A DNA stretch of 64,000 nucleotides from Bacteroidaceae bacterium (lineage in GTDB: Bacteria; Bacteroidota; Bacteroidia; Bacteroidales; Bacteroidaceae). A program made the translations under genes and the position numbers. The notes under the pieces are model-generated. The model searched no databases. It had not been told where the DNA came from and saw only the letters and a program-made list of their open reading frames with translations. Shown here piece by piece: positions 11,319 to 64,000 of the stretch; the first letter of the stretch is position 1, and each line of letters starts with the position of its first letter. The stretch covers positions 36,977 to 100,976 of the forward strand of contig JAFUFK010000024.1 in the NCBI GenBank assembly GCA_017469925.1, written 5' to 3'.

Positions 11319-11404
11319 AAGAATTCCCATAATTATGAACGCACATTCCAAAGTTCGGGACGTGCGTTCATAAGTTTGGTACGTACGTTCCAAACTTATG
11401 AACA
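11319..11404. repeat. Phased palindromic repeat, 21-bp period (site I)
   Basis: Four units begin at 11319, 11340, 11361 and 11382, exactly 21 bp apart; neighbouring units agree at about 13-14 of 21 positions. They form alternative perfect inverted repeats: TTATGAACGCAC (from 11333) with GTGCGTTCATAA, and TTCATAAGTTTGG with CCAAACTTATGAA. The middle arm can pair with only one partner at a time. The site follows the rpsT terminator directly. See the other sites at 14771, 32240, 46606, 57711 and 63939. Confidence 0.75.
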
Positions 11405-11546
11405 CAGCAAGCATCCTTATCTTAACATCTTTGCACCTCCTGGCTAAGCCTTTTCCACCTGGGTGTTCCGCCTTTTACTTGTGCGAAACAATTATCCCAC
11501 CATGAAAAAATTAACCGGCAACCGTTAAACATTAAACTTTTATTCG

Positions 11547-11554
11547 TATCTTTG
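11547..11554 (+). promoter_or_regulatory. -7 box for structured RNA
   Basis: TATCTTTG matches TAnnTTTG. The region 19-21 nt upstream has no clean TTTG, so the -33 element is weak. The predicted RNA start is around 11558-11561, just where the outermost predicted helix begins. Confidence 0.7.
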
Positions 11555-11557
11555 CAG

Positions 11558-11875
11558 CATCCCTGCGCCGATAACGCGTATGCGTTGGGACGAAAGCGGT
11601 GGCCAGCGGGCCCCGTTTGTCGTGGGGATAACATATATGGAAAGGCGTTTCTCTACGCTTTGTGCTTGACACTCCGGAATCTGGCAGTTCCAATATAACA
11701 AGTCAAAAAGCAAAGCAACAAAGAACGTCCATTAGGGGTATATTTACAACACGAGTGTGTTGTATCTATACTATCCGCGTGGGCTTCGGCGTTGTTCATT
11801 ACTGACTTGTTAGGCGATGCCAGAGCCTCGGAGTGTGGGATGAGCAACGAGATCTGAACTCCCACGCTCTTTTTT
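11558..11875 (+). ncRNA. Orphan structured RNA, about 318 nt
   Basis: Preceded by a -7 box and ended by a hairpin with a T run, and with no convincing reading frame. Nested long-range helices are visible: CATCCC (11558) with GGGATG (11837), ACACTCCG (11669) with CGGAGTGT (11829), CTGGCA (11681) with TGCCAG (11818), and AACAAGTCA (11697) with TGACTTGTT (11803). The apex is a hairpin of TACAACAC/GTGTTGTA (11745-11764) extended by GTATA/TATAC. The 5' part has small hairpins such as AACGC-GTAT-GCGTT. I see no tmRNA, RNase P, SRP or common riboswitch core sequences. It could be a Bacteroidales-specific RNA (6S or Bacteroidales-1 type should be tested) or a leader of the DUF2971 gene 62 bases downstream. 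Confidence 0.65.
11831..11875 (+). terminator. Terminator of the structured RNA
   Basis: GAGTGTGGGA (11831-11840) pairs with TCCCACGCTC (11860-11869), followed by six T. Its 5' arm overlaps the 3' arms of two long-range helices of the same RNA (CGGAGTGT and GGGATG), so terminator and long-range fold exclude each other in part. Confidence 0.8.
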
Positions 11876-11936
11876 GTATAAATCAGCAATTTTTATAGAA
11901 TCCACTTAAGGGAGGCTCGTGGATATAAGTAACTAT

Positions 11937-12845
11937 ATGGAGCTTGCCTGTCATTATACCACATTAGAAGCATTCTATGGAATGTTGAAAAGTATTGATT
12001 GGGACAAAAAGGCAGAAGAACAAACTCTGACTTTTTGGGGGAGTAGTATATATTCCATGAATGACCCGCAAGAGTTTATTTATGGCTATAAACTACTTCT
12101 ATCATCCGCTCTCCCTGATATTGAGAAAAATTTGAGAATAGAGGATGATAGGTTTAAACTATCAAAAATTGTGAATATATTGGGAAATGGTGACATAGAG
12201 GAGGCTAATCGTATACTGATCGATTACATTTATAGAGAGCACAATGTCCCCTTCATCATTTCTTTTACGAGAAACAGAGATTACCTACCTATGTGGAACA
12301 TGTATTCCAATAATAGTACAGGTGTATGTCTGTGCTTTAGCAACAATGAATACGTTGTAAGGAATGTGAACGATATAGATATTGATATAGATATAATCCA
12401 TCGTCTTCATGCAATGGACGTGTCATATGGAGTTATTAGTGAAACTATCAATAATACCCTGCATAAGCAATACAAGAGATTTTACGAAGAGTACCGAAAT
12501 AAGAAAGGCGAGGAGCTAAAGCGAAAGATGCTGAATTATTTTACAACTCTTGTGCTTACGCTTAGCCCTTATCATAAGCATAAGGCCTATAAATTTGAAG
12601 ACGAAATAAGGTTGGTACAATTTAAAGAGAATGATAGCGATATCAAATATAGAATCAGCAAAAAAGGTAACCTTATTCCTTATATTGAAATTCCAGTAAA
12701 ACTAAAATATTTGGAGAGAGTCATCGTGGGACCTTGTGCAGACTCTCCTTCAATTATAAGGGAACTCCAGCATATTTTAAGAAAATACAAAGGAAATGAG
12801 AAGAATTTCATTATACCATCAGAGATTCCCTACAGAGAAATCTAA
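11937..12845 (+). CDS. DUF2971 family protein
   Basis: A cytoplasmic protein of 302 residues with the DUF2971 layout. The N-terminal CHYTTLEAFYGML is followed by SIYSMNDPQEFIYGY, then a central PFIISFTRNRDYLPMWNMYS and GVCLCF, and a C-terminal HKAYKFEDEIRLVQF. The molecular function of this family is not established; members occur often in accessory and defence-rich regions. I start at ATG 11937 because the domain begins immediately. An in-frame GTG at 11919 lies 3 bases after AGGGAGG and would add six residues. The gene is strongly AT-rich compared with rpsT and gyrB, suggesting acquisition. No TAnnTTTG box lies between it and the RNA upstream. Confidence 0.82.
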   Translation: MELACHYTTLEAFYGMLKSIDWDKKAEEQTLTFWGSSIYSMNDPQEFIYGYKLLLSSALPDIEKNLRIEDDRFKLSKIVNILGNGDIEEANRILIDYIYREHNVPFIISFTRNRDYLPMWNMYSNNSTGVCLCFSNNEYVVRNVNDIDIDIDIIHRLHAMDVSYGVISETINNTLHKQYKRFYEEYRNKKGEELKRKMLNYFTTLVLTLSPYHKHKAYKFEDEIRLVQFKENDSDIKYRISKKGNLIPYIEIPVKLKYLERVIVGPCADSPSIIRELQHILRKYKGNEKNFIIPSEIPYREI

Positions 12846-12872
12846 TTGTTTAATTTCAAAATACTTAAAGTT

Positions 12873-14555
12873 ATGAAGAAGATTTGTCTTTTATGTTTGA
12901 TGCTCAGCATCAGTTTATGGGCCAATGCACAAGCAACAAGCCTAACCGTCGACAACCAAACGCCAGGATGGCTATCGAGTAAGATTAATTATGGTGACCA
13001 ACAGACGGTGAAAAACTTGAAGGTCACGGGGTATATCAATAAGACAGATTTGAAGTTTATAGGTACATTAATAAGTTCTGGGAGCCTTGATGGAGAAATA
13101 GACTTGTCTAATGCAAATATCTTAAGTGAAACTTCTGGTGGAGAAGATAGTGTGTTGGTAGGATTTGGATTGAGCAAAATGGATTCAATTAGAGTTTATC
13201 GTATTCCTCAAAGTGCATCATCTGTTGTAAATTGTATTAATAATCTGTATGTTGATACTATGTATTTTGATTGCGAAATGACATATGTAGATAAGAATTG
13301 TTTAAGTGGTAAACAAACTCAAATAGGATATCTATTTATAGGTGAAAATACAGATTCCATTCCCGAGATGGCTTTTAATGGTCCAGTAACACAATATGGA
13401 GAACCCCAAAAAGATGTATTCAATGTTGAAACGGTACATTTCCCGACGACAATAAGATACATTGGTGACCAAGCCTTCCCAACAATATCTTCATGTAATT
13501 TTAATGATTTGAAACAACTTGAATATTTAGGGATGAATGCATTCTCACATTATGAATTTATAAAGAATTTAGTAGGATGTTATTATCCAGACACACTTGT
13601 AATCTCTCAAAAATTGAATAACCCTCTCTATCTTTTTGCTTTTGCATATAAAGACGGACAGCATATTTTTATTGGGGATAATATAACAGAAGTTAGTGGC
13701 TATTCACAATTATGGGGAAAGCCCGGAGACTATAGCACAAGTGCAAAACTTCATTTTCATATAAATAGTATGATTCCTCCATCAATTGTTCATTATAAAT
13801 TCAGTAATTCCGACGTTGATTTGACCACATCATATGTATATGTACCCAAGGGAGCTAAAGAGGCCTATCTTAAATCTTCATGGAAGAACGCAACTATAAT
13901 AGAAGCAAATCCCATAGAAACGATTACGTTAAATAAGCATGAAGTAACAATTAATAAAGGCACGAAAGAACTTTTGTCAACTACTATTAGCCCCATAGAT
14001 GCAGATAACAAAACTATTATATGGAATTCCTCTAATGAAATAGTTGCTACCGTCAATGAGAAAGGACTTGTAACAGCATTACAGGCTGGAGAGGCATGGA
14101 TAAAAGTAGTTTCAACGGATAATCCCGAAGCAAAAGATTCATGTAAAGTTACTGTCATCCAGCCTGTTACTGGTATTTCACTCAGTCAAGAGGGCTATAC
14201 GCTTGATCGAATTGGAGCAAGCTACCAATTGAAAGCTTTTGTTGAGCCAAAAGATGCTTCTAACAAAGAAATTGCGTGGAAAAGTTACAATGAATCTGTA
14301 TGTATTGTGAATAACGGATTGGTTATTGCTACTGGATATGGGACCACTATTGTAACAGCCACAACAGATGATGGCGGTTTTATGGACTATTGCACCATTA
14401 TTGTGGAGGACAACACTCCCGTCAGTGGCATCGATGCTGATGGGCAGGCCTACAAGGTGTTTGACATGAAGGGCATCCTGCGCAGTCGCCTCGTAAAGGG
14501 CCTGAACATCATCCGCTTCTCAGATGGGACGATGAAGAAGGTTGTGATTAAGTAA
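12873..14555 (+). CDS. Secreted BspA-like/Ig-like surface protein with C-terminal sorting tail
   Basis: The start at ATG 12873 gives a signal peptide (KKICLLCLMLSISLWANAQ) and 560 residues. About residues 100-310 resemble degenerate BspA-type leucine-rich repeats (for example VHFPTTIRYIGDQAF and LEYLGMNAF). Two Big_2-like Ig domains follow (about 355-440 and 440-522), each with the xWxSxNxxVxxVxxxGxVxAxxxG pattern. The last 44 residues (YKVFDMKGILRSRL...KKVVIK) resemble the C-terminal sorting tails of Bacteroidetes exported proteins. Codons change sharply at about 14401: the body is AT-rich, the tail GC-rich like the host. Likely surface adhesion or matrix function; ligand unknown. Confidence 0.8.
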   Translation: MKKICLLCLMLSISLWANAQATSLTVDNQTPGWLSSKINYGDQQTVKNLKVTGYINKTDLKFIGTLISSGSLDGEIDLSNANILSETSGGEDSVLVGFGLSKMDSIRVYRIPQSASSVVNCINNLYVDTMYFDCEMTYVDKNCLSGKQTQIGYLFIGENTDSIPEMAFNGPVTQYGEPQKDVFNVETVHFPTTIRYIGDQAFPTISSCNFNDLKQLEYLGMNAFSHYEFIKNLVGCYYPDTLVISQKLNNPLYLFAFAYKDGQHIFIGDNITEVSGYSQLWGKPGDYSTSAKLHFHINSMIPPSIVHYKFSNSDVDLTTSYVYVPKGAKEAYLKSSWKNATIIEANPIETITLNKHEVTINKGTKELLSTTISPIDADNKTIIWNSSNEIVATVNEKGLVTALQAGEAWIKVVSTDNPEAKDSCKVTVIQPVTGISLSQEGYTLDRIGASYQLKAFVEPKDASNKEIAWKSYNESVCIVNNGLVIATGYGTTIVTATTDDGGFMDYCTIIVEDNTPVSGIDADGQAYKVFDMKGILRSRLVKGLNIIRFSDGTMKKVVIK

Positions 14556-14582
14556 GGGCATAGCATAACCTATCTCTAACAG

Positions 14583-14669
14583 ACGTAATGCTGCAACCAC
14601 GGCACCCTGTATCGTGGTTGCAGCATTCGTTTGAGATGGAGTCATGTACTTTACAAAATCCTACCATAG
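14583..14669. repeat. Direct repeat block A, copy 1
   Basis: An 87-bp block nearly identical to 16688-16773. It contains a perfect 14-bp inverted repeat (14587-14600 with 14614-14627). The hairpin lacks a following T run, so it is not an obvious intrinsic terminator, although it lies 28 bases after a gene end. Confidence 0.85.
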
Positions 14670-14770
14670 GATATCGGCAAAAAAACGCGATTTGACGTGT
14701 AAAAAAAGCGCCATTTTCGTGATGTCAGAACTCCCTGTTGTGGACAATGAGGCGACTGGATTACCAGCCC

Positions 14771-14876
14771 ATTACCTAAGGTGGTAATCGGATTACCTGT
14801 CAGAGGTAAAATGATTTTCCTTACATGTAATGCGATTTTCTCTATGGTGTAATGCCATTTCCTTACGGGCAGGGAC
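14771..14876. repeat. Phased palindromic repeat, 21-22 bp period (site II)
   Basis: Units begin at 14771, 14792, 14813, 14834 and 14856 (spacings 21, 21, 21, 22). Unit 1 has ATTACC...GGTAAT, unit 2 TTACCT...AGGTAA, unit 3 the perfect palindrome TTACATGTAA; units 4 and 5 are degenerate. The unit sequence differs from that of every other phased site in the window. The corresponding interval before gyrB keeps only the first unit. Confidence 0.65.
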
Positions 14877-15012
14877 GCTTGCAGAGCGAAGCAGGGCAAG
14901 AAATGCTCAAAATAATTTGACCTTCGGTCTTATTTTGTCGCGACTCAGCAAAGACTATGCAAGCATTCTTTGCATTCGCTGCTCCAAAATTTGGTATTTC
15001 GCTCGCTTTTTC
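14873..15012 (+). repeat. D element, copy 1
   Basis: A 140-bp block differing from 17058-17197 at only two bases. It carries three palindromes in a row: GACC-TTC-GGTC, a TCGCGA core, and GCAAAG...ATGC-AA-GCAT...CTTTGC. Diverged copies lie at 36927-36996 (same strand) and 63754-63800 (opposite strand). It ends TTTCGCTCGCTTTTTC. Confidence 0.88.
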
Positions 15013-15134
15013 TATAGATATGCGACTTTTGCGATTCTTTCTTCATCGTTAGCTGTTGAAGATTGTTTTAGGCGAAATTTGCTTAAATTATTCGCGAAAC
15101 GATGATTTTATGCCGACTTCTCAATAAAAATGCG

Positions 15135-15142
15135 TATCTTTG
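15135..15142 (+). promoter_or_regulatory. -7 box of the AlbA_2 gene
   Basis: TATCTTTG, 18 bases before the chosen ATG, implying a leader of about 12 nt. TGCCGACTT occurs at 15111-15119 and again at 15143-15151, a direct repeat straddling the box that could be an operator. No clear -33 TTTG is present. Confidence 0.65.
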
Positions 15143-15160
15143 TGCCGACTTTTTAAGCGA

Positions 15161-16657
15161 ATGACCAATATGACGATAGAGGACATACAGACGTTGATAC
15201 ATGGTGATGAGACTCGCACGTTGGAACTAAAGAAAACAACGGGCGAGTTGAAGGATGGAATACGTTCTGTTTGTGCTTTCCTCAATACTGCTGGCGGTTG
15301 GCTGTTCTTCGGCATTGCACCAACAACCTTGAAGATTCTTGGTCAGGAAGTGACCGACAATACACGGAAGGAGATTGCTCGTGAGATTGCTAAATTGGAA
15401 CCACTGATAGACTTGCCAGTAGAATACATTGATGTATCAGATCGTCCGGGTTGTCAAGTTATAGCTATCCATGTGGATGCTGTAAGTTATTGGGAGGATC
15501 CGTACACCTATGACAGCAAACCATATATTCGAATGGAGAGTACTACCATTGTCATGCCTCGTGACATGTATTGGGATAGACTGATGCGGAGCAAGGGCAA
15601 CCGCTACAAATGGGAAGACCAAGTTTGTGAAGGTATCACCTTTGCAGACTTGGAGGAACAGCGTATTCGTGGCGGAGTGCGTTTAGGTGTTGAACGTGGT
15701 CGCATGCCAGCATCTTCTTTGATGGAAACAACGGAAAGCCTTGTTGAGAAACTGAAACTTACGACTTCCGACGGGAAATTGAAGAATGCTGCTGCCGCCT
15801 TGTTCCTTCATGACACCAGCCAGTTCCCCCAGTTCCTGCTTCGCATGGCTCGTTTCCGGGGTACCGACAAGAATGAGTTTATCGACAACCAACGTGCCTA
15901 CGGAAACTTCTTCACTCTCCTGGATGCTGGCATGGCATTCTTCTTCAAGCACCTCTCTATTAGCGGAAAGATTGTTGGTTTTACGAGAGAGGAGAAACTG
16001 GAAGTTCATGCTGAAGCCCTACGTGAAGCCTTGACGAATGCGCTCTGCCATCGGTTTTTCCACAATACAAGTAGTTCTGTGGGCATCGCCATCTATGATG
16101 ACCGTATTGAGATTGAGAACTCTGGTCATCTGCCAGAGGAGTTAACCACAGAGACCATTAAGCAGTCACATCATTCCTTCCCACAGAACCCAACCATTGC
16201 CGACGTGCTCTTCAAAACCACATTTTTGGAGAATTGGGGCAGCGGTGTCGGTCGCATCATGGATGCCTGTAGAGAGGCGAACCTTCCCGAACCAGAATAC
16301 AACCAAAACGCGTCTTTTGTGTGGGTGACATTCAAAAGGAACACCATACAACCGTACGACCATACAAGTTCACCACACAACCATACAACCATACAAGTTC
16401 ACCATACGACCTCTATGCACCCTTCTAAGGCTAAACGCCTAAAGAAGTTCTTGTCGGTAGTTGGCGAAAAAGGTGCGAACCTGAAGACTTTGATGGAGGA
16501 AATGAATTTGCGCAATAGGTCAAGCTTTGTTAATGCTTACATAACCCCAAACTTGGCAGAAGGGTATATTGCGATGCTATACCCTGAATCTCCCAATCAT
16601 CCAATGCAGTCATACTTCTTGACGAACAAGGGCCGAGAATTTTTAGAACGACTTTAA
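15161..16657 (+). CDS. AlbA_2/Schlafen-type domain protein with RecG-like ATP-binding domain
   Basis: A 498-residue cytoplasmic protein. Residues 1-130 form an AlbA_2 (Schlafen AlbA-like) DNA-binding domain with ETRTLELKKT and FLNTAGGWLFFGI. Residues about 280-395 match the GHKL-like HATPase_c_4 region of these proteins, with EALREALTNALCH, YDDRIEIENSG and GSGVGRIM. After a His/Thr-rich linker (about 395-420), residues 425-498 look like a winged helix ending FLTNKGREFLERL. Family members are putative transcription regulators or defence-associated; the target is unknown. I chose ATG 15161; ATG 15170 is possible. Codon use is intermediate between the AT-rich genes upstream and the GC-rich host. 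Near-identical direct repeats flank the gene. Confidence 0.85.
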   Translation: MTNMTIEDIQTLIHGDETRTLELKKTTGELKDGIRSVCAFLNTAGGWLFFGIAPTTLKILGQEVTDNTRKEIAREIAKLEPLIDLPVEYIDVSDRPGCQVIAIHVDAVSYWEDPYTYDSKPYIRMESTTIVMPRDMYWDRLMRSKGNRYKWEDQVCEGITFADLEEQRIRGGVRLGVERGRMPASSLMETTESLVEKLKLTTSDGKLKNAAAALFLHDTSQFPQFLLRMARFRGTDKNEFIDNQRAYGNFFTLLDAGMAFFFKHLSISGKIVGFTREEKLEVHAEALREALTNALCHRFFHNTSSSVGIAIYDDRIEIENSGHLPEELTTETIKQSHHSFPQNPTIADVLFKTTFLENWGSGVGRIMDACREANLPEPEYNQNASFVWVTFKRNTIQPYDHTSSPHNHTTIQVHHTTSMHPSKAKRLKKFLSVVGEKGANLKTLMEEMNLRNRSSFVNAYITPNLAEGYIAMLYPESPNHPMQSYFLTNKGREFLERL

Positions 16658-16687
16658 TTGCCGAAATCGTTGTCTATTTTCAGATAA

Positions 16688-16773
16688 ACGTAATGCTGCA
16701 ACCACCTCACCCTGTATCGTGGTTGCAGCATTCGTTTGAGATAGGGCATGTACTTTACAAAATCCTACCATAG
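16688..16773. repeat. Direct repeat block A, copy 2
   Basis: Near-identical to 14583-14669, including the 14-bp hairpin around the ATCG turn. It begins 30 bases after the AlbA_2 gene, just as copy 1 begins 27 bases after the surface-protein gene. Confidence 0.85.
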
Positions 16774-17057
16774 ATTGTCAACATCCCTCACATCTGTCAC
16801 CAGCCCAGTGTTTATCGAACCTCGGCGGTGTGAGGGATGTGTGAGGAATGTGAGGGATATTGGGCAAAAATGCGATTTGACGTGTAAAAAAGCGCCTTTT
16901 TCGTGATGTCAGAACTCCAAGTTGCGAGCGATGGCGCGACGTATTGTCGGGGTCGCCGCAAGGCGATTACCAGCCATTACCTAAGGAGGTAATTTCGCTC
17001 GTTTTTTCGTACCTCTGACTATCGTCGAAGATACTTGCGCTCGGCGCTCGGCCCTCA

Positions 17058-17197
17058 GGACGCTTGCAGAGCGAAACGGGGCAAGAAATGCTCAAAATAA
17101 TTTGACCTTCGGTCTTATTTTGTCGCGACTCAGCAAAGACTATGCAAGCATTCTTTGCATTCGCTGCTCCAAAATTTGGTATTTCGCTCGCTTTTTC
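17058..17197 (+). repeat. D element, copy 2
   Basis: Two mismatches in 140 bases with copy 1 (14873-15012). The TTTG of its AAAATTTGG (17175-17178) lies exactly 20 nt before the gyrB -7 box, so the repeat supplies the -33 element. In copy 1 the corresponding downstream sequence is TATAGATA, with no -7 box. Confidence 0.88.
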
Positions 17198-17206
17198 GTA
17201 TCTTTG
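17175..17206 (+). promoter_or_regulatory. gyrB promoter
   Basis: TTTG 17175-17178, 20-nt spacer, TATCTTTG 17199-17206. Transcription would start near 17213, just before a 31-nt alternating purine-pyrimidine tract. Confidence 0.85.
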
Positions 17207-17217
17207 CACGTTGAATA

Positions 17218-17248
17218 GCGTGTGCGCGCGTGCGTGCGCGTATATATA
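17218..17248. other. Alternating purine-pyrimidine tract in the gyrB leader
   Basis: 31 bases alternate purine and pyrimidine without a break: GC/GT/CG steps, then a TATATATA end. Such tracts can adopt left-handed or melted structures under negative supercoiling. It lies between the gyrB promoter and the gyrB ATG. Confidence 0.7.
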
Positions 17249-17256
17249 AAGGAATT

Positions 17257-19248
17257 ATGGAAGAATATCAGCACATAACGGAACAAGAGCAGGCCCAGTA
17301 TTCGGCCGCGAACATCCAGGTCCTGGAAGGACTGGAGGCTGTGCGCAAGCGCCCGGCCATGTACATCGGAGACATCTCGGAGAAGGGTCTCCACCATCTG
17401 GTTTACGAAACGGTGGACAACAGTATCGACGAGGCCTTGGCCGGATACTGTACGCACATCGAGGTCACCATCAACGAGGACAACTCCATCACGGTGCAGG
17501 ACAACGGTCGAGGTATTCCCGTGGATATGCACGAAAAGGAGCACAAGAGCGCCCTAGAGGTCGTGATGACGGTGCTGCACGCCGGTGGTAAGTTCGACAA
17601 GGGGTCGTACAAGGTCTCGGGCGGACTGCACGGCGTCGGTGTCAGCTGCGTCAATGCCCTGTCGTCGAAGATGGTCAGCACGGTCTATCGCGAGGGAAAG
17701 ATTTATCAGCAGGAGTACTCGAAGGGTAAGCCCCTGACGGGTGTGGAGACCATCGGCGAGACGGAACTGCGCGGTACGCGCCAGCAGTTCTGGCCCGACA
17801 AGAGCATCTTCACCACGACGACGTACAAGTACGACATCCTGGCCAACCGCATGCGCGAACTGGCTTACCTGAATGCCGGCATCACCATCACCCTGACCGA
17901 CAAGCGTCTGGAGGAGAACGAGAAGGTGGGCATCGAGGGCGAGCGCAAGGAAGTGTTCTACAGCGAGGGTGGCCTGCGCGACTTCGTGCGCTACATCGAC
18001 TCGAGCCGTACACCGCTGACGGGCGACGTCATCTACCTGAACACCGAGAAGCAGAACACCCCCATCGAGGTGGCCATCATGTACAACACGGCCTACTCGG
18101 AGAACCTGCACTCGTACGTCAACAACATCAACACCATAGAGGGCGGAACGCATGTAGCCGGTTTCCGCGCTGCCCTGACGCGTACGCTGAAGTCGTATGC
18201 CGAGCAACAGTGCTCGAAGGAACTGGAGAAGTTGGCCAAGAACCACGTTGAAATCAGCGGTGAGGACTTCCGCGAGGGTCTGACCGCCGTCATCAGCGTG
18301 AAGGTGGCCGAGCCACAGTTCGAGGGCCAGACAAAGACGAAGTTGGGTAACTCGGAGGTATCGGGTTACGTACAGCAGGCCGTGGGCGAGGCGCTGGCCA
18401 ACTACCTGGAGGAGCATCCCCAGGAGGCCAAACTCATCGTCGATAAGGTGTTGCTGGCCGCTACGGCACGCGTGGCCGCTCGTAAGGCTCGCGAGAACGT
18501 GCAGCGCAAGTCGCCCATGGGCGGCGGCGGTCTGCCTGGCAAGTTGGCCGACTGCTCCGACAAGGACCCTGCCAACTGCGAGATGTTCATCGTCGAGGGA
18601 GACTCCGCCGGCGGCTCGGCCAAGCAAGGCCGCTCGCGCCAGTTCCAGGCCATCCTGCCCATCCGCGGTAAGATATTCAACGTCGAGCGCGTGATGTGGC
18701 ACAAGGCCTTCGAGCACGAGGAGGTGAACAACATCATCCAGGCCCTGGGCGTACGCTTCGGACTGGGCGAGGACTCGAAGGAGGCCAACTACGAGAAACT
18801 GCGCTACTACAAGGTCATCATCATGACCGATGCCGACGTCGATGGTTCGCACATCGACACCCTGCTGATGACCCTCTTCTTCCGCTACATGCCCGAACTC
18901 ATCCAGAAGGGCCACCTCTACATCGCCACGCCGCCCCTCTACCGTTGCCGCATCGGCAAGAACGAGGAGTATTGCTATACGGAGGCCGACCGCCTGCGCT
19001 TCATGGAGAAGTACAACGGCGGACGCGAGGACGGCATCACCACCCAGCGCTACAAAGGTCTGGGTGAGATGAATCCCGAGCAGTTGTGGGAGACGACCAT
19101 GAATCCCGAGACGCGCCTGCTGAAGCAGGTGACCATCGAGGACGCTGCCGGTGCCGACTACGTCTTCTCCATGCTCATGGGCGAGGACGTGGGTCCGCGT
19201 CGCGAATTCATCGAGAAGAATGCAACCTTTGCTAACATCGACGCATAA
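17257..19248 (+). CDS. gyrB: DNA gyrase subunit B
   Basis: The ATPase subunit of the type IIA topoisomerase that introduces negative supercoils. 663 residues from ATG 17257; an in-frame GTG at 17230 within the leader is less likely. The GHKL ATPase domain shows [17 protein letters not shown] and DNGRGIPV; the ATP lid [15 protein letters not shown] follows. The TOPRIM domain has [23 protein letters not shown] and DADVDGSHI. The C-terminal [15 protein letters not shown] is typical of GyrB, and ParE is less likely given length and context. Its TAA stop overlaps the bcp ATG by one base. Confidence 0.96.
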
Positions 19249-19697: not shown

Positions 19698-19721
19698 AAA
19701 CGTCAGAAACCATACTAAAAG

Positions 19722-19934
19722 ATGAAGAAAAATATCTTTTCCAATCTGAGGGCACTGGGTATTGTACTCTTCCTCTGCCGTCGTTGGTTCAAGGTGCTCT
19801 ATTGGCCCAGCCTCATCCTCATCATCCTGGCCTCCATCGGCCTGCTCTTCTATTGGAAGGAGAACAGCCGTTCCAACAACATCTGGAACTTCATCATCCT
19901 TGTCGCCGCCCTCCTTGTTGCGGCAGGATTCTGA
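19722..19934 (+). CDS. Small two-helix membrane protein, unknown function
   Basis: 70 residues beginning KKNIFSNLRALGIVLF. Two hydrophobic segments (about 24-43, VLYWPSLILIILASIGLLFY, and 54-70, WNFIILVAALLVAAGF) are separated by a short polar loop KENSRSNNI. It follows bcp by 24 bases and is followed 10 bases later by a terminator, so it is probably the last gene of the gyrB operon. I do not recognise a family. Confidence 0.72.
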   Translation: MKKNIFSNLRALGIVLFLCRRWFKVLYWPSLILIILASIGLLFYWKENSRSNNIWNFIILVAALLVAAGF

Positions 19935-19944
19935 TAAAAAAAGC

Positions 19945-21273: not shown

Positions 21274-21293
21274 GTTTTTCCTTATTATATAGG

Positions 21294-21301: not shown

Positions 21302-21345
21302 CGGATTTATTATGAATTATGAATTGTGAATTGTGAATTAATTTG

Positions 21346-32227: not shown

Positions 32228-32335
32228 ACCCTCGCCTGAAGGTTATGTTAACCTACGCCCGTAGGTTAACATAACTCATCGCGACAGGTTAATATAACGG
32301 GGGGCCATAGGTTAATATAACTTTCAGGCGAGGGT
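32228..32335. repeat. Phased repeat, 23-bp period, in 13-bp inverted ends (site III)
   Basis: Perfect terminal inverted repeats ACCCTCGCCTGAA (32228-32240) and TTCAGGCGAGGGT (32323-32335) enclose four units beginning at 32240, 32263, 32286 and 32309, exactly 23 bp apart. Units 2-4 read AGGTTAAyATAAC. Unit 1 is inverted relative to unit 2, giving a perfect 15-bp stem (32242-32256 with 32261-32275). It lies 42 bases after the BNR gene. Confidence 0.82.
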
Positions 32336-46605: not shown

Positions 46606-46693
46606 TGAAGCGATACGTGGCTTCACGCCCTGCCATATAGTGGCAGAAGACCCTGCCATACTGTGGCAGAGATTCCTGCCATACTGTGGCAGA
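46606..46693. repeat. Phased palindromic repeat, 23-bp period (site IV)
   Basis: CCTGCCATAnwGTGGCAGA begins at 46629, 46652 and 46675, exactly 23 bp apart; copies 2 and 3 are identical over 19 bases. Each has arms CTGCCA/TGGCAG. A degenerate unit in phase at 46606 has TGAAGC/GCTTCA. It fills the only long gap inside the export operon, between hlyD and the first permease. Confidence 0.85.
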
Positions 46694-54561: not shown

Positions 54562-54565
54562 AAAC

Positions 54566-55260: not shown

Positions 55261-55264
55261 GGCC

Positions 55265-56566: not shown

Positions 56567-56586
56567 CTCTTTTATTATTTCATTTA

Positions 56587-57627: not shown

Positions 57628-57644
57628 TCGGCTTATTTTGCGCA

Positions 57645-57652
57645 CAAAGATA
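57645..57652 (-). promoter_or_regulatory. -7 box of ruvB
   Basis: TATCTTTG on the minus strand; predicted start near 57638, giving a leader of about 11 nt before ATG 57627. Confidence 0.72.
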
Positions 57653-57710
57653 ACGAATAATTGCGACGTACCGAAATCTTCCGACCTATTTTTCCGTTTG
57701 TCCTTCTCGT

Positions 57711-57774
57711 CGTTCCATCACGATTGAACGTTCGTTCGATGGTGATTGAACGTTCGTTCGATGCGCATTGAACG
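57711..57774. repeat. Phased palindromic repeat, 22-bp period (site V)
   Basis: CGTTCsATnnnnATTGAACG begins at 57711, 57733 and 57755, exactly 22 bp apart. Each unit is nearly palindromic (CGTTCrAT against ATyGAACG). It lies between the divergent ruvB promoter and the next gene's promoter. Confidence 0.83.
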
Positions 57775-57839
57775 ACGAAAAGGATACGACCATGAAGAAA
57801 AAACCACACCAACCTCGTCGCTATATCCCGATAATTTTG

Positions 57840-57847
57840 TATCTTTG
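57840..57847 (+). promoter_or_regulatory. -7 box of the OB-fold protein gene
   Basis: TATCTTTG, 48 bases before the ATG. No convincing -33 TTTG. Confidence 0.68.
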
Positions 57848-57895
57848 TGGCCTAAACGATACCAATTAATTCTAATTCACTAAAAACTAACGTTT

Positions 57896-59530
57896 ATGAA
57901 GAAATTTTTACTCACTCTCTTCGCAGTCATGACTGCAAGTTTTGCCTTCGCCGGTGACGGCACGAAGGAGAATCCCTACACCGTGGCCGACGTGCTTGCC
58001 GCGCAAATGGACTCCTCCGAAGTTTACGTAAAGGCCTACATCGTAGGCTCTTGCACCGGTAGCGCCATCAGCAGCGCTGAGTTCGGCGTTTCCGACAAGT
58101 CCTCTGCCTCTAACATTTTGTTGGCTGACGCTCAGGATGAGAAGAGCACCGACAATGTAATCGCAGGCCAGATGCCTAACGCCGTACGTGCCGGTCTGGC
58201 ATTAAAGAATGTTCCTGAGAACTTGGGAAAGACCGTAGTCCTGAAAGGCCAACTCATCAAGTACTTCGGCAAAAACGGTATCAAAAATATTACTGAGTAC
58301 GAACTCTCGGGCGAAGGCATCGACCCGGGCGAAGGCGGCGGCGAAGAGGAGAAGCCCGACTTCTCGGAATACGAGGAACTGAGCGTGGCCAACTTCCTGG
58401 AGAAGAAGGACACCCAGACGAAGTTCAAGCTGACCGGTATCGTGGGCAGCATCAAGAACACTACGTATGGCAACTTTGACCTGATTGACCTCGACAACGA
58501 GGATGTTTCCGTCTATGTCTATGGCCTTGTCGATTACAAGGGCACCACGAAAATCTGGGGCACCATGGACCCGAAGATTGAGGAGAAGGACACCATCACC
58601 GTAGTAGGTTCCTACACTCTCTACAACGGCACGACCGACGAAATCGTGAACGCCATCTACGTCGAGCACAAGAAGTTCACCGGCGAAAAGGTGAGCATCA
58701 AGAACACCCCCGAGACGGCCTACACCGCAGCTAAGGTGAAGGAACTCGTGGACGCTGGCGAGGGCCTGAGCGACGAGGTTTACGTCAAGGGCGTCATCTC
58801 CAGCATCAGCTCTGTAACTCCCGGCGGCTCGGCCACCTACTTCATCAAGGACAACGTGGACGACGAGTTCTCGGTACAGGTCTATAAGGGAAACTTCCTG
58901 GAGAACCACGCCTTCGACACCGCCAACGACATCAAGGAGGGCGACGAAGTCATCATCTATGGCCTCATCACGCTGTACCAGACGACGTACGAAATCAACT
59001 CGGGCAACTACATCTACTCCCTGAACGGTGAGACGAAGTACACCCCGAAGGACCTGAACGACATCACGAACACCCCCGAGACGGCCTACACCGTCAGCCA
59101 GGCTACAGCCCTCATCGCTGAAGGCACGAACGACCTGACCAAGGAGGTTTACGTCAAGGGTATCGTCAGCGAAATCAAGTCGATCGACACCAGCAAGTAC
59201 ACCCGCGCCCAGTACTACATCTCCGAGGACGGTACGACGGAGAACCAGTTCTACATCTACAACGGTCTGTACCTGAAGGGCGAGAACTTCACCTCGGACG
59301 ACCAGCTGAAGGTGGGCGACGAAGTTGTCATCTACGGCCAACTGACCGTCTATAACGGTGCACCCCAGATGGCCCAGAACAACCAACTCTACAGCCTGAA
59401 TGGCATCACGGACGGAATTAGTAACATCGCAGTTACGAAGAGCGCTGGCATCTACGACCTCGCAGGCCGTCGTGTAGAGAAGGCCGTGAAGGGCATCTAC
59501 ATCGTGAATGGCAAGAAGGTTGTGAAGTAA
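57896..59530 (+). CDS. Secreted protein with tandem OB-fold-like (DUF6359-type) domains
   Basis: 544 residues with signal peptide KKFLLTLFAVMTASFAFA. There are four successive domains of about 100-120 residues. Domain 1 begins GTKENPYTVADVLA, domain 2 YEELSVANFLEKKD, and domains 3 and 4 both begin with NTPETAYT and contain the matched EVYVKGVISSISS/EVYVKGIVSEIKS and GDEVIIYG/GDEVVIYG. This is the OB-fold-like pattern of Bacteroidetes DUF6359-type proteins. Domains 1 and 2 are joined by an acidic Gly/Glu linker. The tail AGIYDLAGRRVEK...GKKVVK resembles a C-terminal sorting signal. Function unknown; ligand or nucleic-acid binding cannot be told apart. Confidence 0.78.
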   Translation: MKKFLLTLFAVMTASFAFAGDGTKENPYTVADVLAAQMDSSEVYVKAYIVGSCTGSAISSAEFGVSDKSSASNILLADAQDEKSTDNVIAGQMPNAVRAGLALKNVPENLGKTVVLKGQLIKYFGKNGIKNITEYELSGEGIDPGEGGGEEEKPDFSEYEELSVANFLEKKDTQTKFKLTGIVGSIKNTTYGNFDLIDLDNEDVSVYVYGLVDYKGTTKIWGTMDPKIEEKDTITVVGSYTLYNGTTDEIVNAIYVEHKKFTGEKVSIKNTPETAYTAAKVKELVDAGEGLSDEVYVKGVISSISSVTPGGSATYFIKDNVDDEFSVQVYKGNFLENHAFDTANDIKEGDEVIIYGLITLYQTTYEINSGNYIYSLNGETKYTPKDLNDITNTPETAYTVSQATALIAEGTNDLTKEVYVKGIVSEIKSIDTSKYTRAQYYISEDGTTENQFYIYNGLYLKGENFTSDDQLKVGDEVVIYGQLTVYNGAPQMAQNNQLYSLNGITDGISNIAVTKSAGIYDLAGRRVEKAVKGIYIVNGKKVVK

Positions 59531-59546
59531 AATACCTACTTTGCAT

Positions 59547-59587
59547 AAAAAAGAGGGGGAAGCCAGCATGGTTTTCCCCTCTTTTTT
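59547..59587. terminator. Terminator of the OB-fold protein gene
   Basis: AAAAAAGAGGGG pairs with CCCCTCTTTTTT across a GCCAGCATGG-containing loop. The T run ends two bases before the next promoter box. Confidence 0.88.
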
Positions 59588-59588
59588 G

Positions 59589-59596
59589 TAACTTTG
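59589..59596 (+). promoter_or_regulatory. -7 box directly before the SpmAB-like gene
   Basis: TAACTTTG ends four bases before the ATG at 59601. With normal spacing the transcript would start at or next to the A of the ATG, giving a leaderless mRNA. Confidence 0.6.
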
Positions 59597-59600
59597 CATC

Positions 59601-60830
59601 ATGGTACTCAACTACATTTGGATAGGATTCTTCCTCGTCGCATTCCTGATTGCGACAATACAACTCTGCATGGGCAACACCGAAGTGTTCCCTGCCATCA
59701 TCGACGCCACGTTTGCATCCTCGAAGACCGCCTTCGAAATCAGTCTCGGCCTCACCGGCACGCTAGCCCTCTGGATGGGCATCATGAAAATCGGTGAGCG
59801 AGGGGGCCTCGTCAATGCACTCGCACGTGCACTGAATCCACTCTTCCGACGGCTCTTCCCCGAGATTCCCGAGGGCCATCCCGTCTTTGGCCACATCTTC
59901 ATGAATCTGGGAGCCAACATGCTCGGCCTCGACAACGCCGCCACACCGCTCGGTCTGAAGGCCATGGAGGGGATGCAGGAACTGAACCGGGAGAAGGACA
60001 AGGCCACGAACGCCATGATTATGTTCCTGGTGCTGAATACCAGCGGACTGACGCTCATCCCCGTCTCCATCCTCGTCTATCGCGCCCAACTGGGGGCCGC
60101 ACAGCCCACCGACGTCTTCATTCCCATCCTGCTGGCCACCACCATCGCCACGATGGCCGGCATCATCATTACCGCCCTCTACCAACACATCAACCTCCTG
60201 AACCGTGCCATCCTGGGCACCATGCTGGGTCTGTGCCTCCTGGTGAGCGGCATGGCCTGGGCCGCCTCGCAACTCAGCCGCGACGACCTCAATCTCTATA
60301 GCACCACCGTGGCCAACGTCCTGCTGTTCGGCATCATCGTGGCCTTCATCGTGGCCGGTATGCGCAAGCGGGTGAACGTCTATGAGGCCTTCATCGAGGG
60401 GGCCAAGGGCGGCTTCGAGACGGCCGTGCGCATCATCCCCTACCTGGTGGCCATACTGGTGGCCATCGGCGTGTTCCGCGCCTCGGGAGCGATGGACGTA
60501 ATCATCGATGGAATCGGCCGTTTCTTCACCCTCCTGGGCATCAACGCCGACTTCGTACCCGCCCTGCCCACGGCCCTGATGAAACCCCTCAGCGGAAGCG
60601 GTGCCCGCGGCATGATGGTGGATGCCATGACAGCGTACGGCGCCGACTCCTTCGTGGGTCGCCTCTCCTGTATCTTCCAGGGCGCCACGGACACCACGTT
60701 CTACATTCTGGCCGTCTATTTCGGCTCCGTCGGTGTGCGCAACACGCGCCATGCCGTCATGGCCGGCCTCCTGACCGACCTCGTCGGCGTACTCGCTGCC
60801 ATCGGCGTGGCGTACCTGTTCTTCTACTAA
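59601..60830 (+). CDS. SpmA-SpmB-like fusion, nucleoside-recognition (Gate) domain membrane protein
   Basis: 409 residues. The first half resembles SpmA (MVLNYIWIGFFLVAFLIA, GLTGTLALWMGIMKIGE, NLGANMLGLDNAATPLGLKAM), and the second half, from about residue 215, resembles SpmB (YEAFIEGAKGGFETAVRIIPYLVAILVAIGVFRASGAMD and LPTALMKPLSGSGARGMMVDAM). Each half has a Gate domain. Despite the name, such fusions are common in non-sporulating Bacteroidetes. Transport function is suspected but not established. A repeat element starts two bases after the stop. Confidence 0.87.
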   Translation: MVLNYIWIGFFLVAFLIATIQLCMGNTEVFPAIIDATFASSKTAFEISLGLTGTLALWMGIMKIGERGGLVNALARALNPLFRRLFPEIPEGHPVFGHIFMNLGANMLGLDNAATPLGLKAMEGMQELNREKDKATNAMIMFLVLNTSGLTLIPVSILVYRAQLGAAQPTDVFIPILLATTIATMAGIIITALYQHINLLNRAILGTMLGLCLLVSGMAWAASQLSRDDLNLYSTTVANVLLFGIIVAFIVAGMRKRVNVYEAFIEGAKGGFETAVRIIPYLVAILVAIGVFRASGAMDVIIDGIGRFFTLLGINADFVPALPTALMKPLSGSGARGMMVDAMTAYGADSFVGRLSCIFQGATDTTFYILAVYFGSVGVRNTRHAVMAGLLTDLVGVLAAIGVAYLFFY

Positions 60831-60831
60831 A

Positions 60832-60966
60832 GACCCCCTACCCCTCCCTTATAGGGAGGAGAGTAGATAGTAAAGTAATTTTACAACATAATATGAATAA
60901 ACAAAATATTCAAATTGCAAAAGACACTACTCCCCGCCCTACAAGGGAGGGGCAGGGAGGAGGGTC
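60832..60966. repeat. Paired GC palindrome element R4
   Basis: Begins GACCCCCTACCCC and ends GGAGGAGGGTC, with palindromes CCTCCCTTATAGGGAGG and CCCGCCCTACAAGGGAGGGG around an AT-rich centre. The right half lies inside the flippase N terminus (TPRPTREGQGGGS), so the gene starts within the element. Confidence 0.82.
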
Positions 60967-62374
60967 TGTTTCTCGCCTTTTCAAGGATACGGCCATCTAC
61001 GGCCTGTCGAGCATCATCGGGCGCTTCCTCAACTACCTGCTCGTGCCGCTCTACACGCATTACATGCCCACCGAATCGGGCGACTACGGCATCTCGACCA
61101 ACGTCTATGCCTACACGGCACTCATCCTGGTACTGCTGACCTTCGGCATGGAGACGACGCTCTTCCGCTACGCCAATGACGAGCGCGAACGGCCCGATAC
61201 GGTGTTCTCTACGGGATTTGCACTGATAGGGACGCTGACGGCCCTGTTCCTGGCCCTCATCTTCGGGTTCATCACCCCCATTGCCGACCGCCTGGGCTAC
61301 AGCGAGCACCACGAATACCTGCTGATGATGTCCGCCGTCGTGGCCATGGACGCCCTGCAGGCGCTGCCTTTCTCTTATCTGCGGTTCCAGAAGCGGCCCA
61401 TACGGTTTGCTACGCTGAAGTTGCTGTTCATCTTCCTCAACATCGGGCTCAATCTGCTCTACTTCGTCGTACTGGGCAAGACGAGCGTCTTCTACGTCTT
61501 CTTCATCAACCTCCTGTGTACCAGCCTCATCACGCTCTGCTTCATCCCTGGGATGTTCAAGATTCAGTGGCACTTCGACGGGGCACTCCTGAAGCGTATG
61601 CTCTCCTATTCGTGGCCCATCCTCATCCTGGGCATTGCGGGCATCCTGAACCAGGTGGCCGACAAGATTCTCTTCCCCCTCGTCTATCCCGACAAGGCCG
61701 AGGCCAACGTCCAGTTGGGCATCTACGGCGGTTGCGTCAAGATAGCCATGATCATGGCCATGATTACCCAGGCCTTCCGTTACGCCTACGAGCCCATCGT
61801 CTTTGCCAAGGCCAAGGACCGCGACAGTAAGGAGTACTACGCCGTGGCCATGAAGTACTTCCTCATCTTCACCCTGCTGGCCTTCCTGTGCGTCATGGGC
61901 TACATCGACGTGCTCCAACTCATCCTCGGCCGCGGCTACCGCGAGGGGATGCAGGTGGTGCCCATCGTCATGGTGGCGGAGATAATGATGGGCGTCTATT
62001 TCAACCTCTCGTTCTGGTACAAACTCATCGACCGCACCATCTACGGTGCCGTGTTCTCCCTCCTGGGCTGTGCCGTGCTCTTCCTGGTCAACATCCTCTT
62101 CATCCCCCGCTACAGTTACATGGCCTGCGCCTGGGGCGGTGTGGCCGGCTACGGCACGGCGATGGTGCTCTCCTACATCGTCGGGCAGGTGAAGAACCCC
62201 ATCCCCTACCCCATGCGCAGCATCCTGACGTATGTGGCGATGACGGCCCTCTTCTACTGGCTCATGACCCTCGTGCCCGCGTCGTGGACCGTCGTCCTGC
62301 GCCTCGCCCTGAACACCCTGCTCATCCTCCTCTTCTGCGCCCACATCTACTGGCACGAAATCAGGAAAAAATAA
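60893..62374 (+). CDS. Polysaccharide flippase (Wzx/MATE-like)
   Basis: 493 residues with about 12-14 membrane helices. The N-terminal domain has DTAIYGLSSIIGRFLNYLLVPLYTHYMPTESGDYG, typical of Bacteroidetes polysaccharide-biosynthesis flippases, followed by TFGMETTLFRYA. It probably moves undecaprenyl-linked glycans across the inner membrane. Residues about 12-24 are repeat-derived and precede the conserved start near SRLFKDTAIYG; alternative starts inside the repeat are absent. Part of its 3' end is duplicated at 63808-63876. Confidence 0.9.
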   Translation: MNKQNIQIAKDTTPRPTREGQGGGSVSRLFKDTAIYGLSSIIGRFLNYLLVPLYTHYMPTESGDYGISTNVYAYTALILVLLTFGMETTLFRYANDERERPDTVFSTGFALIGTLTALFLALIFGFITPIADRLGYSEHHEYLLMMSAVVAMDALQALPFSYLRFQKRPIRFATLKLLFIFLNIGLNLLYFVVLGKTSVFYVFFINLLCTSLITLCFIPGMFKIQWHFDGALLKRMLSYSWPILILGIAGILNQVADKILFPLVYPDKAEANVQLGIYGGCVKIAMIMAMITQAFRYAYEPIVFAKAKDRDSKEYYAVAMKYFLIFTLLAFLCVMGYIDVLQLILGRGYREGMQVVPIVMVAEIMMGVYFNLSFWYKLIDRTIYGAVFSLLGCAVLFLVNILFIPRYSYMACAWGGVAGYGTAMVLSYIVGQVKNPIPYPMRSILTYVAMTALFYWLMTLVPASWTVVLRLALNTLLILLFCAHIYWHEIRKK

Positions 62375-62383
62375 CCGCTCAAA

Positions 62384-63742
62384 ATGGACAGAAGAGAATT
62401 CCTGAAGCGCTCTGCCCTGTTATCGGCAGCACTGGCCACAAGCGACATTGCTGAAGCAATAAACCTCACCCCAACCCTCTCCAAAGGGGAGGAAGAGAAT
62501 ACTTCTCCAAGTCAGGAGGGGGCCAGCCTTTTGGCCTCTGCACCCATGCTCCAAAACTATGCCGAGACGTCGATGGGCATTACCTTCGCAGTCAGCGACA
62601 TGGCCAACGGATATGTCATCTATGGCGAAAAGCCCGACCTGAGCGACGGACGAAAGGTCATGTGTGGAGGATATCGGACAACGGACATCGACGACCACAT
62701 CAGTCAGGTTCGCCTCACGGGCCTCCGTCCTTCCACCACCTATTACTACCGCATTGGTGCCGACCGCATCGCCTACAAAGGCGGATACGACATCAGAGTG
62801 ACGGGAAACGAGGAAGACAGGCGCATCTACAGCTTTACCACAGCAGGCAAACAGAGTCGCGCTCACTTCTGCGTCATCAACGATACGCACGTTCAGTGGG
62901 AACCCTTCGGACGAGCCATCGAGAAGATAGCCCAACTGGCTCCCTCCTGCGTCGTGTGGAATGGGGATGCGAGCAACTCGGAGGAAACCATCGAAGCCCA
63001 GACACGCATATTCCTGACACCCGAAATCGCACGCAAGGACTATGCCTGCCAGATTCCCTACCTCCTCTCTCCAGGCAACCACGACCTGCGTGGCTGGGCC
63101 AACCGCCATCTCGAACGCGTGTGGATGTATCGCCAACCCGAAGAGCGCACGAGTCGCAACTGGGACCTTGGGCGCAACTTTGCCGTTCGCATGGGTGACA
63201 TTGCCATGATAGGACTTGACACAGGCGAGGACAAGATGGACACCAATCCCAAGTTTGCAGGCACCTTCAACAGCAAGGCTTACCGGGAGGCTCAGACCGA
63301 GTGGCTTCGCGATGCGCTTCGCCAGCCCGAGATTGCCAAGGCCCCCTTCCTGGTGACCTTCTGTCACATCCCCCTCTTCGACCCTGACCCCAAGCGCAAC
63401 CCTGGCGACGTAAGTCCTGCCGACACCGACCCGCAGTACGACACCGACTATGCCATGTGGCAACGCACTTGTGCACAGTTGTGGACACCCCTGCTCGAGA
63501 AGGCCCGTTGCCAACTCATCATCACCGCCCACCAGCATCGCTATCGCTACGACAAGCCCACGGCCTCACGTCCCTGGGCGCAAATCGTGGGAGGCGGTCC
63601 TAACATGGACATCACCCGAAAGGGCAAGTTCCCCACCGTCATCGAAGGCGAAGTGAAGGACAATCAACTCTGCATCACCATCCACAACCTGCTCTCAGGC
63701 GAGGTGCAGGAGACGATGACCTTCAGTCGGCGTAAAAAGTAG
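62384..63742 (+). CDS. Exported metallophosphatase with Tat-type signal
   Basis: 452 residues. The N terminus DRREFLKRSALLSAALA has the twin-arginine pattern RR-x-FLK followed by a hydrophobic stretch. Residues about 60-140 look like the Fn3-like N-terminal domain of purple acid phosphatases (YRTTDIDDHISQVRLTGLRPSTTYYYRI). The metallophosphoesterase core shows VINDTHVQW, WNGDAS, SPGNHDLRGW, FCHIPLF and ITAHQHRYRY, the five metal-binding blocks. The stretch NLTPTLSKGEEENTSPSQEGAS after the signal is repeat R6. Substrate unknown. Starts nine bases after the flippase stop. Confidence 0.88.
   Translation: MDRREFLKRSALLSAALATSDIAEAINLTPTLSKGEEENTSPSQEGASLLASAPMLQNYAETSMGITFAVSDMANGYVIYGEKPDLSDGRKVMCGGYRTTDIDDHISQVRLTGLRPSTTYYYRIGADRIAYKGGYDIRVTGNEEDRRIYSFTTAGKQSRAHFCVINDTHVQWEPFGRAIEKIAQLAPSCVVWNGDASNSEETIEAQTRIFLTPEIARKDYACQIPYLLSPGNHDLRGWANRHLERVWMYRQPEERTSRNWDLGRNFAVRMGDIAMIGLDTGEDKMDTNPKFAGTFNSKAYREAQTEWLRDALRQPEIAKAPFLVTFCHIPLFDPDPKRNPGDVSPADTDPQYDTDYAMWQRTCAQLWTPLLEKARCQLIITAHQHRYRYDKPTASRPWAQIVGGGPNMDITRKGKFPTVIEGEVKDNQLCITIHNLLSGEVQETMTFSRRKK
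62466..62523. repeat. GC palindrome element R6 (degenerate) inside a gene
   Basis: CACCCCAACCCTCTCCAAAGGGGAGG followed by a partial second half (CTTCTCC...GGAGGGGG). It is translated between the Tat signal and the first domain of the metallophosphatase. Confidence 0.65.
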
Positions 63743-63753
63743 CAACAAATGCA

Positions 63754-63800
63754 AAGATGCTTGCATAGTCTTTGCTGAGTCGTGACCCTGTCCCGACCTT
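63754..63800 (-). repeat. D element, copy 4 (inverted, partial)
   Basis: ATGCAAAGATGCTTGCATAG and TCTTTGCTGAGTCG are the reverse complement of the central D element. It starts 12 bases after the metallophosphatase stop and joins a duplicated flippase tail. Confidence 0.75.
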
Positions 63801-63807
63801 GCGACGT

Positions 63808-63876
63808 AACACTCTGTTCATCCTCCTCTTCTGCAGGCACATCTATTGGCACGAAATCAGGAAGAAATAACCGCTC
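63808..63876 (+). pseudogene. Duplicated 3' end of the flippase gene
   Basis: 69 bases align without gaps to 62312-62380 (seven differences, about 90% identity). They encode NTLFILLFCRHIYWHEIRKK followed by the stop and nine further bases of the original spacer. No start or upstream coding remains. This looks like the remnant of a second flippase copy or of a tandem duplication around the metallophosphatase gene. Confidence 0.85.
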
Positions 63877-63938
63877 TGCCTGCTAAATTTCGTTACACAT
63901 CTCTAATCTATCGTGCGTACGCTCGCACATGCGCGTTG

Positions 63939-64000
63939 GAAACCAGTGACTGGTTAAGCCGAAACCAGTCACTGGTTTCGCCGAAAGGAGTCACTGGTTA
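63939..64000. repeat. Phased palindromic repeat, 22-bp period (site VI, cut by window end)
   Basis: GAAACCAGTsACTGGTT-type units begin at 63939, 63961 and 63983, exactly 22 bp apart. The core AACCAGT-x-ACTGGTT is a perfect 7-bp inverted repeat in units 1 and 2; unit 3 starts GAAAGGAGT. The array may continue beyond the window. 63877-63938 holds nothing else recognisable. Confidence 0.83.

Follow-up and report, generated by a model that had tools for sequence, protein, structure and literature searches.

Lineage-specific arrays of phased pseudo-palindromes in the intergenic DNA of some Prevotella-like Bacteroidales, candidate binding platforms for a DNA-binding factor

Tandem operators and plasmid iterons consist of sites about two helical turns apart, bound cooperatively on one face of the DNA, and each set belongs to one replicon or regulon. 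The intergenic arrays considered here differ from both, as they occupy tens to hundreds of loci with no gene theme and share one architecture among many unrelated sequences. Regularly spaced palindromes of another kind are the REP/BIME elements, presented in passages of two reports as lineage-specific, intergenic and clustered, with a bias towards gene ends and proposed protein binding (PMC2817692; PMC3733652). In the features covered by these passages the arrays resemble REP/BIME, being multi-copy, intergenic, palindromic, lineage-specific, clustered, regularly spaced and biased to gene ends, but they differ in the usual number of four units, the exact pitch and the many unit families per genome. 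REP/BIME is thus the nearest known kind, although neither its tag nor a link to RAYT was found: the GTAG/CGTC tag tetramers occur 5 times across arrays comprising 140 GGTTAACC units, a density of 1.6 per kb vs 16.4 in flanks, and twice in arrays with 54 units of family F. RAYT mobilisation as a general cause was rejected, since searches of G012 and G023 (drafts 86% and 72% complete) with PF01797 yielded nothing at E<=0.01 and the one sub-cut-off match in G000 has no adjoining array, the nearest being ~5 kb away. The BrickBuilt elements of Porphyromonas gingivalis contain one common 23-nt unit in 19 elements of 1 to 22.8 copies, with IS5-type terminal inverted repeats (TIRs), a leader and a tail (PMC4596501). 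The arrays are similar to this MITE as intergenic tandem repeats at about two helical turns, with inverted ends, in Bacteroidales; compared by its description, however, they have many unrelated units, pitches of 21, 22 and 23 bp and usually 3-5 copies. Matches to GAGACCTTTGCA-like BrickBuilt TIRs in the window were 3 with 2 mismatches vs 5.0 expected, none of them at an array. The separation from BrickBuilt on account of its shared unit, made in a preliminary description of this DNA, is therefore upheld. In the open-access literature searched, no description of these arrays was seen.

The window, the whole stretch of 64,000 nucleotides that was analysed, comes from a Prevotellaceae/Bacteroidaceae-type draft genome, of which 781 kb were sampled. 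It had been described as holding six arrays at a pitch of 21-23 bp; this was borne out for five (at 11319, 32240, 46606, 57711 and 63939), whereas the one at 14771 is weak and below threshold. No strand is assigned to the arrays themselves. Array 1 (family J, 11319..11408, pitch 21 bp) is quasi-palindromic and lies within a larger dispersed repeat, of which the 781-kb sample contains four further copies (88-91% over 159-357 bp). Array 2 (14771..14866) is a weak quasi-repeat of 21-22 bp and sits in a 350-bp sequence that is repeated at window 16855-17197 (77%); TRF reports 2.6 copies with 68% matches and 8% indels, and the threshold that recovered the other five window arrays did not recover it. 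Array 3 (family B, 32240..32322, pitch 23) has four AGGTTAAYATAACT-like units, the first inverted, starting at 32240, 32263, 32286 and 32309. It is enclosed by a left outer inverted repeat, ACCCTCGCCTGA (32228..32239, + strand), and a right one, TTTCAGGCGAGGGT (32322..32335, - strand), and BLAST finds its relatives at other loci. Array 4 (family A, 46630..46692, pitch 23) shows three clear CTGCCATAnTGTGGCAG-like units starting at 46630, 46653 and 46676 and a weak fourth near 46606, in a 142-bp gap between same-strand genes that probably form one operon; family A recurs at C12:792, C20:168068 and in the congener G014. Array 5 (family G, 57711..57774, pitch 22), three units of CGTTC-N10-GAACG, lies between ruvB and a divergent gene, with relatives at C10:132610 and C24:33313. 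No counterpart was found at the ruvB place in 22 congener loci (two of them short) at the threshold used, nor by eye in the 11 closest named loci; a few other species carry arrays near ruvB. Array 6 (family C, 63941..63999, pitch 22) has three AACCAGTSACTGGTT units and is truncated by the end of contig C2, which is also the window end; a relative stands at C2:5411 (91% over 89 bp), and comparison with plasmids gave no match. The units had been regarded as private to each site, which fails for five window arrays, all with relatives elsewhere in the genome.

The phenomenon extends far beyond the window. The expected excess of 21-23 bp palindromic repeats over shuffled sequence was confirmed in the 781 kb, where tandem and palindromic intergenic repeats at lags 21, 22 and 23 occur at 1, 12 and 3 places, 16 in all, vs 0 in 20 shuffles. 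In 381 kb, without the requirement for palindromy and intergenic position, the same lags gave 7, 11 and 7 places with controls of at most 0.3 per lag, and lags 13, 17, 19, 20, 25 and 26 gave 0. Eighty loci of related species show the same peak (4, 20 and 6 at lags 21, 22 and 23); the cultured Hoylesella loescheii DSM 19665 and Prevotella ihumii Marseille-P3385 are among the species with arrays at their loci. Samples totalling 319 kb from 16 genomes of the order's other families, and 200 kb of E. coli, contained no such arrays, and the patterns of families F and A had 0 matches each in viral contigs. This genome has about ten unit types, several with 2 to 14 arrays, which supports the earlier view that the arrays are not reducible to a single dispersed repeat; other species carry unit types of their own. 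Family F, with 14 arrays here, exactly four units in 12 of them, has no match in 24 congeners, and the GGTTAACC family, with 270 and 238 unit pairs in the sister species G012 and G023, has 0 or 1 in each of 23 other genomes of the genus and four units in 25 of 35 arrays. The pitch is constant within a family: 22 in 105/105 steps of the GGTTAACC family, 40/40 of F and 9/9 of D, and 23 in 7/7 of A. With a fixed pitch of 21, 22 or 23 bp, the dyads of a family therefore share roughly one face of the helix. Single units are rare, as arrays account for 52 of the 54 exact GGTTAACC sites on the G012 contig and, among the listed forward F sites, for 49 of 50, and unit number is unchanged in 13 of 14 orthologous array pairs. 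Replacement of an array by one of another family was looked for beside a single F array: of 14 loci orthologous to its surroundings, one (G021) carries an array with a different unit, which says little given the high base rate. The families are thus lineage-specific, the spacing being fixed while the palindrome sequence differs by lineage, and this combination points to DNA-binding factors.

The substitution pattern was measured for a single family between two species, in the GGTTAACC arrays of G012 and G023, where 7 of 416 palindrome core sites changed (1.7%) vs 67 of 312 in spacers (21%) and 255 of 1413 in flanks (18%). All 58 core variants are broken palindromes, none compensated. The unit edges of this family are A.A or T.T in 77 and A.T or T.A in 35 of 140 cases, and edges are asymmetric in 39 of 54 F units. 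Because cores are conserved, compensated variants number 0/58 and asymmetric edges are preferred, a protein reading double-stranded DNA is favoured over hairpins. We propose, with a confidence that we would put at about one half, that each family is a binding platform of a putative sequence-specific dimeric DNA-binding factor with a chromosome-structuring or insulating role. The element would comprise about four pseudo-palindromic sites, each roughly 14-20 bp, intergenic and lineage-specific, on which about four dimers might stack cooperatively across some 85 bp, and arrays near gene ends could then act as structuring or insulating sites, much as REP/BIME are thought to work. Both this role and a factor family with lineage-shifting specificity are guesses. 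A wider version, according to which Prevotella-like Bacteroidales have fast-evolving chromosome-organising proteins, each lineage with its own pseudo-palindrome and a stack of about four dimers at ~22 bp pitch, is speculative and on balance unlikely; if true, genomes would be re-marked with new tetrad sites as protein specificity shifts, a nucleoid marking with lineage dialects. Within part of a major bacterial group of the gut, rumen and mouth, the DNA between genes carries modular marks in which geometry is kept and sequence replaced by lineage. If they are read by a protein, it would belong to a family of DNA-binding factors whose specificity changes quickly, and the tetrads would be ready baits for finding it. 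The arrays also matter for assembly, as that ending contig C2 illustrates, for genotyping and for intergenic annotation.

Another possible explanation, to which we give clearly less weight, is that the arrays are selfish, non-autonomous miniature elements of ~85-110 bp that serve no host function and are spread by a putative transposase with affinity for the phased palindromes. It would account for the bursts restricted to lineages, for the sequence shared well past the array limits within families J and B and by two of the three D arrays, and for G001, in which the ruvB/divergent gene pair is kept with a gap ~124 bp shorter and no array. F arrays have partly conserved, common end sequences (e.g., CGTTT..AAACG), and outer inverted repeats are present in a minority of arrays. 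However, the cores of G012 and G023 are conserved beyond their flanks with unit number kept, most F arrays (the C12 and C20 copies excepted) lack the common spacers expected of recent copies, no target duplication was seen by eye, and none of 20 neighbour proteins scanned around F arrays was a transposase.

Quite unlikely, in our view, is a role as RNA or single-stranded hairpins, that is, 3' UTR structures or multi-hairpin terminators. A stop codon faces the array within 60 bp in 54% vs 16% (G012/G023), 45 vs 23% (11 F loci), 38 vs 19% (G000) and 32 vs 25% (other species), and unit polarity follows the gene direction in 16/22. A transcript-level role would explain both, and they count against the protein model, as do the mixed polarity inside 11/27 arrays and the variation of the family G inner cores, which differ yet stay largely palindromic and look compensatory. 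Predicted folding is strong (mean z -5.3 for 21 G012 arrays, -7.0 for 14 F arrays), but any palindrome array would give it. A further point against the protein model is that complementary outer flanks exceed chance in a mixed set, scoring >=7 in 13/60 arrays vs 4.3% of mismatched pairings, though with no excess in the GGTTAACC family. Against hairpins, besides the lack of compensation, the edges are anti-complementary, complementarity of spacers within one array (long hairpin pairing) is not above control, sense-strand wobble is unconvincing (17 G-T vs 11 A-C), and some arrays sit between divergent genes or beyond a clear terminator. For the phased sites, which the preliminary description left to dimeric proteins or RNAs, the evidence thus leans to DNA over RNA, without settling the question. 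That arrays are built or tidied by slippage and template switching at palindromes, with neither selection nor a trans factor, is highly improbable: one spacer is exactly inverted between arrays of the sister species and the differing spacer of two near-identical F arrays matches better inverted, but a given unit turns up at numerous unlinked loci of one species, the pitch does not vary, the cores are under constraint and there is a preference for asymmetric units.

Family F was also considered as a regulon and rejected: 20 of its 28 flanking proteins were scanned, 5 of them without a family, and no common function emerged. A small protein with an RNA_pol_A_CTD domain is encoded 790 bp from one F array.

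Within the 2.87-Mb draft source genome (28 contigs), whose RuvB has its nearest matches, the top one at 92%, in MAGs of rumen-type Bacteroidales and Prevotellaceae, five of the six arrays claimed for the window by the preliminary description have the architecture ascribed to them, namely those at 11319 (family J), 32240 (B), 46606 (A), 57711 beside ruvB (G) and 63939 (C), the last interrupted by the end of the contig. At 14771, a repeat signal is present but weak. An excess of 21–23 bp palindromic spacing over shuffled controls, proposed as a check, is present in the source genome, which was sampled in two stages (381 kb, then 781 kb). By autocorrelation alone, lags 21, 22, and 23 gave 7, 11, and 7 places in 381 kb and lags 13, 17, 19, 20, 25, and 26 gave none; the peaks at other lags were coding repeats. 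A stricter filter, requiring an intergenic position and at least 6 of 7 matching arm pairs, left 1, 12, and 3 places in 781 kb, no more than two at each remaining lag through 40, and seven at lag 44 (2 × 22). These counts (1/12/3) were unchanged when the scan was restricted to intergenic sequence, 20 Markov shuffles of which contained no place at lags 21–23. Eighty loci of other species (1.44 Mb) yielded 4, 20, and 6 places, with zero at these lags in 20 shuffles, and 4 of these 30 places are AT-rich (at least 75% A+T) and may be of low complexity. The 22 loci with at least one place include those of P. denticola, P. ihumii, Hoylesella loescheii, and H. saccharolytica; Palleniella muris was positive only at a laxer threshold. 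Sampled sequence from elsewhere in the order (16 genomes from 16 other families, 319 kb in total, with several samples below 10 kb) contained no place, and neither did 200 kb of E. coli K-12. Four congeners gave one place in 160 kb, thus array abundance differs even inside the genus.

The proposal that each site has private units did not hold, since units of the source genome, sorted by eye into about ten types, include several multi-array families. Family F (unit GTGCCA-YNNR-TGGCAC) comprises 14 arrays, 12 with four units and two with three, at a pitch of 22 bp in all 40 steps. With up to one mismatch allowed, 56 single F units were counted on the forward strand versus 4 with the reversed pattern, and 49 of the 50 forward units listed fall inside the 14 arrays; no match was found in 24 congeners or 16 genomes from other families. 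Family A is present in the source genome and congener G014 and absent from the remaining 39 genomes searched. A stretch of the source genome (C12:1-1482), holding a family A array, matches G014:C13 at 97% with nearly identical spacers, possibly through horizontal transfer. In the congeneric sister species G012 and G023, the dominant family is built on the core GGTTAACC (21 arrays in 175 kb and 14 in 97 kb, respectively); its pitch is 22 in 105/105 steps, 25 of 35 arrays have four units, and 52 of 54 exact cores on the G012 contig lie within arrays. Genome-wide, unit pairs with at most one mismatch number 270 in G012 and 238 in G023, and 0 or 1 in each of 23 other genomes searched, the source genome among them.

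Array maintenance looks selected. G012 and G023 are 85–96% identical in aligned blocks above 500 bp and share 14 orthologous array pairs, of which the 13 with equal unit number were used for counts. Core positions are 94–100% identical and mid-spacer positions 62–72%, with changes at 7/416 core, 67/312 spacer, and 255/1413 flank sites (8–60 bp from arrays), as measured in this single family and species pair. Within-genome homogenisation was rejected as the cause of core conservation, because core variants, e.g., GGTTAAGC or CCTTAACC, are mostly common to both orthologues. Array birth may involve mobile or copying steps, as suggested by three observations. BLAST similarity, confined to the array in families A, F, and G, extends up to ~200 bp in B and over 159–588 bp in J, and 331 bp are common to two of three family D arrays. 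In congener G001, ruvB and a divergent-gene homologue (40% over 137 residues) are both retained, ~126 bp apart versus 250 bp in the source genome, with no array in this gap. Finally, one spacer in the G012:C1 arrays is exactly inverted relative to G023 (ATCGAAAG and CTTTCGAT), which indicates that spacers are able to flip between flanking half-sites.

We favour a mechanism in which each site would be bound by a predicted sequence-specific dimer and about four dimers would stack along one helix face; this would explain the fixed pitch, the usual unit number, the free spacers, and the constrained asymmetric cores. One alternative is that the arrays are read as RNA. Their predicted folding is strong, but any palindrome array yields it. 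Among 140 GGTTAACC cores of G012 and G023, a pair is broken in 58 and no compensating double change occurs. Bases adjoining the core are anti-complementary in 77/140 versus complementary in 35/140 (odds ratio 5.1, p 9e-5, with orthologues counted twice; 41 versus 20 in G012 alone), and family F has asymmetry in the same sense in 39/54 units (p 6e-4). Complementarity between spacers of one array was not found, nor was clear enrichment of sense-strand wobble. Against reading as DNA count the inner cores of family G, variable yet still largely palindromic, the tendency of unit polarity to match gene direction (16 of 22 scorable arrays), and complementary outer flanks, which are commoner than expected by chance across a mixed collection of 60 arrays and show no excess in the GGTTAACC family.

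Arrays of the source genome lie in 13 tandem, 12 convergent, and 8 divergent settings, with one at an edge, against a background of 84, 34, and 43 intergenic regions of at least 120 bp. Sites shortly 3' of a stop codon are favoured: one lies within 60 bp for 54% of G012/G023 arrays versus 16% of control windows, 45% versus 23% at 11 F loci, 38% versus 19% in the source genome, and 32% versus 25% in other species. Gene starts are uncertain because gene calls are plain ORFs. Some arrays sit past a clear terminator (window ~11258-11295; C20 ~213578-213625). Neighbours of F arrays are varied (YgbB, FGGY kinase, GH97, ketopantoate hydroxymethyltransferase, dTDP-sugar isomerase, TonB plug, sulfotransferase, and others).

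REP/BIME (PMC2817692, PMC3733652) is the nearest known kind, although the REP tag is not a feature of the GGTTAACC and F arrays and no RAYT link was found in the source genome or in G012 and G023 (drafts 86% and 72% complete); the arrays also differ from BrickBuilt elements (PMC4596501). No earlier description was found in open-access literature. Array position and the REP/BIME parallel allow us to guess at a structural or insulating role.

Other repeats were also encountered. At C5:91676-91834, an imperfect direct repeat of ~50 bp (GATTACAGGCAAG..GCATGAGCCGAACGTC) adjoins an ORF of 347 aa that weakly matches Y1 transposases (RAYT-like). A dispersed ~190-bp repeat (C20:213858-214054) occurs in many congeners at 72–88%, and a 28-bp motif near it recurs in many of those. 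GTTTAA-type short-period arrays with an 8-bp step occupy other intergenic stretches (C10:8612-8712, C10:47529-47702, C20:11608-11683). In the window, a 29-bp tandem repeat of 2.4 copies (16342-16411) lies within an ORF (15140-16657) with Schlafen AlbA_2, HATPase_c_4, and Fic-like_C domains.
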